Below, one piece after another: positions 2,017-40,829 of a DNA stretch of 49,182 bases (its first letter is position 1; each line of letters starts with the position of its first letter). Source of the stretch: Leyella stercorea DSM 18206. Lineage in GTDB: Bacteria > Bacteroidota > Bacteroidia > Bacteroidales > Bacteroidaceae. The DNA lies in NCBI RefSeq assembly GCF_000235885.1, contig NZ_JH379341.1, forward strand, positions 1 through 49,182, written 5' to 3'. Both the position numbers and the translations under genes were made by a program. The notes below the pieces were generated by a model. The model saw only the letters and a list, made by a program, of their open reading frames with translations, searched no databases and had not been told where the DNA came from.

Positions 2017-2319
2017 TCACTCCAGCGGCTTGCGGTAGTTCGCTTCCAGTACCCCGCGCAGCCCCGTTTCCGGGTAAAGCACCTTCCCTCCCAAAAGTAT
2101 GAAGGGCAACACGCGGTTGTTGCGGTATTCCTGCAAGGTGCGCCGGCTCACACGGAGCAGTTCCGACACCTCGCCGTCCGTCAGGTAACGTTCCCCGTCC
2201 AGCGGAGGACGGTAGCTTTCCAGAAATGCGGACAGCCATTTCGAGCCTTTGCGCATATCCTGCACCACAGAGGCTATCGGCTCGTCTTCCATCGTAAAAA
2301 CATCGTTGTTCTCGTTCAT
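2017..2319 (-). CDS. Excisionase-like helix-turn-helix protein
   Basis: A 100-aa protein starting MNENNDVFTMEDE. Residues about 47-92 (YLTDGEVSELLRVSRRTLQEYRNN then VLPFILLGGKVLYPE) form a MerR/excisionase-type winged helix of the HTH_17 class, the same fold as Xis2c and Xis2d nearby. It is read after the 2354-2653 gene on the same strand, separated by 34 nt, so the two probably form one leftward operon divergent from xis2c. By position it may correspond to one of the small orf2-series genes of CTnDOT. Its DNA target is unknown. An adjacent ATG at 2322 is equally possible. Confidence 0.85.
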   Translation of the reverse strand: MNENNDVFTMEDEPIASVVQDMRKGSKWLSAFLESYRPPLDGERYLTDGEVSELLRVSRRTLQEYRNNRVLPFILLGGKVLYPETGLRGVLEANYRKPLE

Positions 2320-2353
2320 CATAACTTCGGATTCAGTGGGTGAATAAATCAAA

Positions 2354-5174: not shown

Positions 5175-5203
5175 CCACTGAATCCAAAATAAAATCCAAA
5201 GTA
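5175..5203 (+). promoter_or_regulatory. Tandem RteR-complementary leader motif before exc
   Basis: CCACTGAATCCAAAATA (5175-5191) overlaps TAAAATCCAAAGTA (5190-5203), 20 nt before the exc start. Both resemble the reverse complement of RteR 7371-7387. The second copy gives an 11-nt uninterrupted match (AATCCAAAGTA), so this is a weaker site than those at mobA and traI. Confidence 0.35.
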
Positions 5204-7311: not shown

Positions 7312-7322
7312 TATTAACTTTG
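7292..7322 (+). promoter_or_regulatory. Promoter of the RteR small RNA
   Basis: TTTC (7292-7295), a 19-nt spacer and TAACTTTG (7315-7322) match the Bacteroidetes -33/-7 consensus in 3/4 and 8/8 defined positions or spacing classes. The -33 lies inside the 3' end of exc. Transcription should start near 7329. Confidence 0.7.
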
Positions 7323-7328
7323 CCACTT

Positions 7329-7418
7329 GTTCAGAGTAATGAATTGTTCTTCGATACCGGATTACACTCATACTTTGGATTTAGTGGTGGCACTCGGAGG
7401 GATACCGAGTGCCTTTTT
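7329..7418 (+). ncRNA. rteR: RteR small RNA, repressor of transfer
   Basis: A promoter just downstream of exc and a terminator ending at 7418 bound an RNA of about 90 nt, which matches the published size and position of RteR, the trans-acting sRNA that lowers tra expression in CTnDOT. A 5' hairpin can form (GAGTAAT 7334-7340 with 7361-7369). Bases 7371-7388 are left unpaired before the terminator stem. The unpaired stretch contains TACTTTGGATTTAGTGG, complementary to several gene leaders in this same element. No protein is encoded. The identity rests on position, size and signals, not on a sequence search. Confidence 0.8.
7389..7418 (+). terminator. Intrinsic terminator of RteR
   Basis: GGCACTCGG (7389-7397) pairs perfectly with CCGAGTGCC (7405-7413) around a 7-nt loop and is followed by TTTTT. 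Confidence 0.9.
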
Positions 7419-7459
7419 CTTCCTTTTTCCAACCGATTATCCCGTTAATTATCAATCCG

Positions 7460-7473
7460 CTAAATCCAAAGTA
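7460..7473 (+). promoter_or_regulatory. RteR-complementary leader motif before the DUF1896 gene
   Basis: CTAAATCCAAAGTA directly abuts the ATG at 7474 and is the exact reverse complement of RteR 7371-7384. Including one G-U pair, the match extends to 17 bp. It can pair in cis with read-through transcripts or in trans with RteR. Confidence 0.5.
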
Positions 7474-30034: not shown

Positions 30035-30051
30035 TACTTTGGATTTAGCGG
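30035..30051 (-). promoter_or_regulatory. RteR-complementary leader motif before mobA
   Basis: The plus strand TACTTTGGATTTAGCGG is identical to RteR 7371-7387 except one base, so the mobA mRNA carries CCGCUAAAUCCAAAGUA ending two nt before the AUG. This gives 17 bp of pairing with RteR including one G-U. Confidence 0.55.
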
Positions 30052-33161: not shown

Positions 33162-33178
33162 CCACTAAAACCAAAGTA
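33162..33178 (+). promoter_or_regulatory. RteR-complementary motif in the traD-traE gap
   Basis: CCACTAAAACCAAAGTA matches the reverse complement of RteR 7371-7387 with one mismatch. It is 71 nt before the traE start, within a 201-bp non-coding gap that otherwise shows no gene. Confidence 0.4.
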
Positions 33179-33248
33179 AAGAAACAAAGTATCAACCGCC
33201 CGACAAAGGACCATCCACCCTTTTGACGGCAAAAAACAAGAACAGTTT

Positions 33249-33566
33249 ATGAACAAGAACATCTTGAAAAACAGAAAAGCAATCCTCTCCGCGGCACTTG
33301 TCATCGCCGCAACCGCCTCCGCTTTCGCGCAGGGAAACGGCATCGCGGGCATCAACGAAGCCACCTCTATGGTGAGTTCTTATTTCGACCCCGGAACTAA
33401 ACTGATATACGCCATCGGTGCAGTCGTCGGGCTTATCGGGGGCGTAAAAGTGTACGGCAAGTTTTCATCGGGCGACCCCGACACCAGCAAGACAGCCGCC
33501 TCGTGGTTCGGCGCGTGCATCTTCCTGATTGTTGCCGCCACCATCCTGCGCTCATTCTTCCTTTAA
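33249..33566 (+). CDS. traE: TraE, VirB2-like pilin subunit (DUF4134)
   Basis: A 105-aa small hydrophobic protein. A signal peptide ends near ASAFAQ (residue about 28), followed by a Gly-rich helix (LIYAIGAVVGLIGGVKVYGKF) and a second membrane helix (FGACIFLIVAATILRSFFL). The pattern, a cleaved leader plus two transmembrane helices, is that of VirB2/TrbC pilins. DUF4134 is the Bacteroidetes version. It lies 10 nt before traF, the expected VirB2-VirB3 order. Confidence 0.93.
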   Translation: MNKNILKNRKAILSAALVIAATASAFAQGNGIAGINEATSMVSSYFDPGTKLIYAIGAVVGLIGGVKVYGKFSSGDPDTSKTAASWFGACIFLIVAATILRSFFL

Positions 33567-36834: not shown

Positions 36835-36852
36835 CCACTAAAATCCAAAGTA
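36835..36852 (+). promoter_or_regulatory. RteR-complementary leader motif before traI
   Basis: CCACTAAAATCCAAAGTA ends 2 nt before the traI ATG. It pairs with RteR 7371-7387 over all 17 bases with one bulged A. Confidence 0.55.
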
Positions 36853-40810: not shown

Positions 40811-40829
40811 CCACTAAAATCCAAAAGTA
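40811..40829 (+). promoter_or_regulatory. RteR-complementary leader motif before traN
   Basis: CCACTAAAATCCAAAAGTA abuts the traN ATG. It matches the RteR complement with two extra A residues. Confidence 0.45.

Follow-up and report, generated by a model that had tools for sequence, protein, structure and literature searches.

We propose that the small RNA RteR of a CTnDOT-type integrative and conjugative element is quite likely a trans-acting antisense RNA whose direct targets are messenger RNAs (mRNAs) of the element that encodes it, with one of these, traE, probably held in a clamp. The element was identified in Leyella stercorea DSM 18206, and the window, that is, the whole stretch of DNA that was analysed, comprises 49,182 nucleotides (nt) of contig NZ_JH379341.1. 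The putative RteR unit in this window was assigned on its setting and size, both of which match RteR, and not on the published RteR sequence. In the mechanism that we propose, the primary seed of RteR (7371-7387) would pair with a leader motif (the tag) shared by mobA, traI, traN, traE, exc, the DUF1896 gene and an HTH_17 gene, at or before their start codons. At traE, a second segment from the upper part of the RteR 5' hairpin would additionally pair over the start codon, which would close a clamp around a stem-loop. Such pairing would block ribosome entry, might also alter mRNA stability, and would lower several transfer functions at once. That RteR pairs with these mRNAs in cells and represses them, with the direction and size that this implies, is what we infer.

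The seed is complementary to the leaders of all seven genes, this complementarity is concentrated at these genes, and it covaries with them in homologous elements. The seed and its sites in the window are as follows.

7371..7387, plus strand: primary seed of RteR (pattern scans, duplex energies, covariation)
7457..7473, plus strand: RteR site at the start of the DUF1896 gene, 17 base pairs (bp) with one G-U
30035..30051, minus strand: RteR site at the start of mobA, 17 bp with one G-U
36835..36852, plus strand: RteR site at the start of traI, one bulged A
40811..40829, plus strand: RteR site at the start of traN, two bulged A
33162..33178, plus strand: primary RteR site in the traE leader, one mismatch
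5175..5188, plus strand: stronger RteR site in the exc leader, 14 bp, -20.2 kcal/mol, 35 nt before the start codon
5191..5203, plus strand: weaker RteR site in the exc leader, adjoining the stronger one
2323..2340, minus strand: RteR site at the start of the HTH_17 gene (2017-2319, minus strand), -27.0 kcal/mol

A first-pass annotation of the same DNA had listed six of these targets, and all six are real: the pairings in DUF1896, mobA, traI, traN and the traE leader lie where it had placed them, its exc pairing corresponds to the weaker part of that leader, and the HTH_17 site had escaped it. It had also placed the motif next to the start codon in DUF1896, mobA, traI and traN, where the sites indeed end 0-2 nt before it. 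From site position, ribosome blocking is therefore plausible for four of the seven targets in the window.

Both pattern counts and duplex energies single out these genes. The motif CCRCTAAATCCAAAGTA with up to three mismatches was found six times in the window (one being RteR itself) against 0.21 expected, and CCRCTRAATCCAAAGTA with up to two mismatches was found 11 times in the whole 4.2-Mb genome, six of them in the window (again counting RteR itself); the reversed control of this second pattern occurs four times in the genome. Four of the five CCRCTRAATCCAAAGTA sites outside the window were inspected, three being located inside open reading frames and one at a protein start. We then used 29 genes, a set chosen from the window rather than every open frame, to evaluate shuffled seeds. 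None of 1000 shuffled seeds paired at -17 kcal/mol or better with six of the 29 gene starts between positions -50 and +12 (maximum 2), and none reached seven of the 29 genes between -130 and +12 (maximum 6). The shuffled seeds, the excess over expectation in the window and the genome-wide count all reject a chance match. With joint folding, in which self-structure is paid for, the seven targets were the top seven of the 29 genes at -12.5 or better and the next gene reached -8.2, the traE leader in this ranking being longer than the other leaders. The same genes lead the ranking in six further elements (the element of G406, whose RteR sequence is incomplete, was left out of this count), with lapses for mobA (eighth in G413:C5, seventh in G372) and for traI (low in G289 and in group 2). 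Outside the window, a one-mismatch site is present in the same genome at 1810269-1810285 (L189), at the start of a 97-aa protein that resembles the HTH_17 target by eye.

We searched for covariation of seed and leaders using stretches of 21 elements scanned together with the window (22 elements), in which target genes were found by protein similarity to the genes of the window and not by the seed. Across the 19 of these 22 elements covered by the duplex-energy comparison, the orthology-picked leaders of exc, DUF1896, mobA, traE, traI and traN averaged -19.0 kcal/mol (114 leaders) and those of control genes of the same elements -9.8 kcal/mol (233 leaders). The corresponding Mann-Whitney p-value of 4.8e-34 should not be taken at face value because the elements are related and several are nearly identical. 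When seeds were permuted among elements, none of 50000 permutations matched the own-seed fit over 11 seed types, and inside groups this occurred in 3/120 (five GGATTTAGTGG types) and 8/720 (six TTTTTTAGTGG types). The region downstream of RteR, which mostly consists of DUF1896 leaders, gave 0/20000 over 26 distinct seeds, and 209/20000 and 1274/20000 inside groups. Among 58 distinct combinations of seed and downstream region, 45 reach -14 kcal/mol, four of which (L064, L080, L082 and L117) lack a flagged start codon and could be due to chance.

Double changes can be read directly in the sequences. The window combines the seed CTTTGG with the leader CCAAAG, G413:C5 combines CTGTGG with CCACAG or CCACAA in mobA, traE, traI and traN, G407 combines AGTGG with CCACT in exc and traE, and group 2 presents long U and A runs on opposite sides. 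One RteR, which was located through its DUF1896 protein and not through its own sequence, has the seed GAAATTAGTGGAGG and the leaders CCTCCACTAATTTCC (DUF1896) and GCCACTAATTTCC (traE). Its genome, G372, also contains a group-2 element: pairings within each element range from -19.7 to -26.3 kcal/mol and cross pairings between the two from -9.0 to -13.5 kcal/mol. Covariation had been proposed by the first-pass annotation as a check of its claim that one RteR segment pairs directly with several leaders, and it supports that claim, seed and leaders mostly changing together with exceptions that are single positions or lost sites. Exceptions aside, RteR thus presents the features of a trans-acting base-pairing small RNA with targets elsewhere and a seed that covaries with them. 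It does not present those of a cis-antisense RNA of the FinP type, as its other targets are kilobases away and RteR is on the same strand as exc and DUF1896. The position of the sites varies: in group 2, those of exc lie 0-6 nt from the start codon and those of traN 21-34 nt upstream, whereas in group 1 traN has its site at the start and most elements have the exc site 31-41 nt upstream. This variation by gene and lineage suggests that covering the start codon need not be the mode of action of every site.

No matching leader was observed just downstream of the RteR-like genes of L058/L079, L076/L099, L101, L116, L133 and L137, nor of those of L032, L078, L091, L073 and L070. These genes might belong to rearranged elements or represent RteR copies acting on elements elsewhere in the cell.

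The first-pass annotation described a single pairing segment. This stands for the primary seed; traE, which we take to be the gene of a VirB2/TrbC-like pilin, is probably also contacted at its start codon by a second RteR segment, forming a clamp. The predicted parts of this contact are listed below.

7340..7351, plus strand: main part of the second seed, predicted to pair with traE 33238-33249 (dimer fold, covariation test)
7327..7333, plus strand: first part of the second seed, predicted to pair with traE 33250-33256 (dimer fold, test against gene starts)
7353..7357, plus strand: GATAC, predicted middle contact with GTATC of the traE leader (dimer fold; compensated forms in two other types)
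33189..33193, plus strand: GTATC, predicted middle contact in the traE leader (dimer fold)
33238..33256, plus strand: start region of traE, with the start codon at 33249-33251 and complementarity to the second seed (dimer fold, test against gene starts)
33200..33229, plus strand: traE leader stem-loop whose loop hardly varies and which stays folded in the predicted duplex (folds)

When the 5' part of RteR was compared with gene starts, traE headed the 29 genes of the window (-22.1); it came top in 10 of 20 elements and second or better in 14 of them. Its rank was fourth in G289 and G025, fifth in G408 and seventh in G407, and low in G059 and G400, whose tra genes are unlinked or mis-assigned. 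Permutation of the second seed gave 0/50000 over nine types and 2/120 and 5/120 inside groups. The middle contact was found by inspection in three matched forms: GATAC/GTATC, CATAC/GTATG (G408) and AATAC/GTATT (G407). In a Muribaculaceae type, the traE leaders L274 and L285 bear CCACTATCCAAATCCACAATCC and, close by, AAAAATAAAATTTATGAC, the latter pairing with the RteR of L051 at -18.7, of L058 at -13.1 and of G395 itself at -11.1. No traE was found in the genome of L051, and the traE-like loci L281, L244 and L282 of Muribaculaceae-type genomes yielded -7.6 to -10.8.

A kissing contact between the terminator loop of RteR (GGAUA) and the loop in the traE leader (UAUCC) was also considered and was dropped because G407 has lost the traE loop while the RteR loop stayed, as judged by inspection. 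In 16 aligned traE leaders, the stem of this stem-loop is very variable but matching and its loop is ACTATCCAC or a close variant; the structure was seen in the window (33200-33229), L241, L253, L254, L255, L262 and others. Its presence in leaders without an evident RteR site (L241, L255) suggests that it probably has a function of its own.

Taken together, the two segments would define a two-headed RteR with a lineage-specific code, one head reading the leader tag and the hairpin head reading the traE start. Because seed and tags diverge together, elements sharing one cell would then repress only themselves, as the energies in G372 indicate. We regard this extended model as about equally likely to be right or wrong.

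Several results weigh against RteR acting as a multi-target antisense RNA with a traE clamp. The primary sites of exc and traE end 35 nt and 70 nt before the start codon. The seed is also partly buried in RteR's own hairpin: the first-pass annotation called it unpaired, whereas in predicted folds TACTTTGGA lies within the 3' arm of the 5' hairpin and only about TTTAGTGG is free. The own seed was the single best for just 5 of the 11 leader sets, the downstream test inside group 2 (1274/20000) fell short of 5 per cent, and 13 of the 58 combinations of seed and downstream region were weaker than -14 kcal/mol. At the level of individual elements, G415:C45 has one seed change and leaders without an answering change, G289 keeps one mismatch in DUF1896, mobA and traN, and the exc and DUF1896 leaders of G413:C5 show no clean matching change. 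At traI, no site was found in group 2 or in G289, and no good sites were found at traI and traN in G407. Regarding the second seed, the idea came from four of the nine types on which it was later tested. When nine further RteRs were compared with 22 traE leaders, pairing them by genome and not by element, the traE of the same genome came first for two of them (one being a tie). Finally, the second seed is weak in L211/L262 (-14.4).

Other explanations of the complementarity have to be considered. RteR could pair with these leaders and activate or stabilise some mRNAs, or act on decay or termination and not by blocking ribosomes. The distances upstream of the start codon of the sites in exc (35 nt), traE (70 nt) and group-2 traN (21-34 nt) are compatible with this, as is the description of the RteR effect as discoordinate tra expression in PMC7366714. 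Four sites in the window nonetheless abut start codons, the second seed covers that of traE, and RteR is termed a repressor of the tra operon in PMC9299015, such that this mode of action appears unlikely.

We consider it improbable that a protein, either a repressor or a chaperone, binds the leaders and that RteR shares or mimics its site, with its 5' arm as a decoy. Although the 5' arm (CCACTTGTTCAGAGTAATGAA) is leader-like and a protein might bind the conserved CCACT core, the leaders of 11 out of 11 elements fit the complement of the 3' arm (means of 10.0-15.2) better than the 5' arm (6.5-10.7; the value of G406 used the wrong 5' arm), which led us to reject the decoy. Alternatively, the pairing of RteR with DUF1896 could occur in cis, a read-through transcript of exc folding the seed onto the leader around the terminator as an attenuator. 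RteR, the terminator and DUF1896 do follow each other in that order on one strand, and this order recurs in related loci, but the motif also occurs on the other strand and at genes separated from RteR by 2 to 33 kb, beyond the reach of cis folding. We give this explanation little credence as a replacement for trans pairing, with which cis attenuation could coexist.

It is very doubtful that the leader motif is an ordinary translation-start element whose complement RteR merely resembles. Four of the seven sites in the window abut a start codon, as such an element would, but the motif shifts with the local RteR seed, and its lack in control genes and its rarity across the host genome led us to reject a generic start motif. 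Lastly, the reverse complement of the leader motif could be a -7 box (TAnnTTTG) for antisense transcription that RteR matches by chance; TACTTTGG fits this box in the present element, but divergent leaders without a box such as CCACTAAATCCACAGTTAAAATG and GCCACTAATTTCC still match their own RteR, so that we rejected an explanation that is scarcely credible.

The direct antisense action of RteR that we favor is set in an element of the CTnDOT type. Based on gene families, the window contains an integrase, a topoisomerase (exc), DUF1896, a tetQ-type gene, rteA/rteB-type two-component genes, rteC, and mob and tra genes, and RteR is thus located on an element with the tetQ-rteA-rteB-rteC-mob-tra gene set of the CTnDOT type. 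TraG, J, K, L, M, N and O as well as RteC are backed by named family models, and the remaining gene letters follow the CTnDOT scheme. The RteR unit is located between exc and DUF1896, on their strand, and is composed of a putative -7 box, the 5' hairpin, the seed and a terminator ending near 7418; sequence and folds give a span of about 93 nt for the promoter-like box, hairpin and terminator.

7315..7322, plus strand: putative -7 promoter box of RteR, TAACTTTG, of the TAnnTTTG type (sequence)
7326..7418, plus strand: RteR small RNA, with hairpin, seed and terminator; the 5' end is predicted
7389..7413, plus strand: terminator hairpin, followed by a T run to 7418

We take TAnnTTTG to be the consensus of the -7 box, and a TAnnTT[TC]G box was found 45-74 nt upstream of the seed core in all 11 RteR loci examined. 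The 5' arm of RteR (7326-7346) resembles the target leaders, which suggests that, within RteR itself, a leader-like strand holds the seed; target binding would displace this strand from the seed.

No Rfam family matched RteR at the gathering score, and three plasmid records carry a near-identical RteR. RteR-like DNA was detected in 18 of 393 Bacteroidales genomes, the weakest matches being unrelated short ones by inspection, and a pattern of the 3' half of RteR was detected in at least 117 loci. TraJ was found in 25 of the 31 genomes searched and the RteR pattern in 24 of those 25. The 5' arms failed to align in a 10-row alignment of RteR. Among the matches listed, those outside Bacteroidales labels are L126 (Riemerella columbina) and the Clostridia-labelled L075, L082 and L103, which are metagenome bins and may be mis-binned. 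The RteR loci of L193 (G396:C1) and L044 are interrupted by an insertion of some 70 bp with one copy of TTAGTGGTG on either side; a segment fitting the leader of L044 precedes this insertion, and L044 was rejected as a counterexample. In L223 (G308:C6), an RteR-type terminator hairpin is reversed before the DUF1896 gene, with no evident seed.

RteR is already known, that of CTnDOT being reportedly the work of Waters and Salyers (2012), and what we probably add is the multi-gene tag and the second head for the pilin gene. No pairing site or direct target of RteR was named in the titles, abstract starts and passages searched (among them those of PMC10994844, PMC7366714, PMC9299015, PMC5729914 and PMC5418344), the original RteR papers lying outside this search. 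RteR sites at traE, traI and traN, within the tra operon, would account for a discoordinate expression of the tra genes. With a defined seed, named sites and variants compensated in nature, the mechanism of RteR can be tested directly. Because elements of the CTnDOT type carry tetQ, a brake of their own on transfer merits attention, and seed-leader codes diverging in step would provide Bacteroidales with ready-made orthogonal pairs of small RNAs and targets.

Enterobacterial small RNAs such as RybB and SgrS use a short seed against multiple targets near start codons. In contrast to these, RteR has its seed and its targets on one mobile element, where they diverge together by lineage. FinP of F-like plasmids is similarly an antisense RNA limiting conjugation; as described in PMC9299015, it represses traJ, whereas RteR has more than one target and is encoded opposite none of them. 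The sgm-sRNA of Salmonella genomic island SGI1 is, like RteR, a small RNA of a mobile element involved in that element's mobilisation, but according to PMC9299015 it originates from the 3' untranslated region of a transcript and is needed for mobilisation, whereas RteR is described as an inhibitor. The closest system is RteR of CTnDOT itself, also a short RNA carried by such an element and described as influencing tra expression, with a size of 90 nt in PMC7366714 compared with about 93 nt here. For this system, our analysis proposes candidate pairing sites, a seed, a wider set of predicted targets (mobA, exc, DUF1896 and HTH) and a probable clamp on traE.
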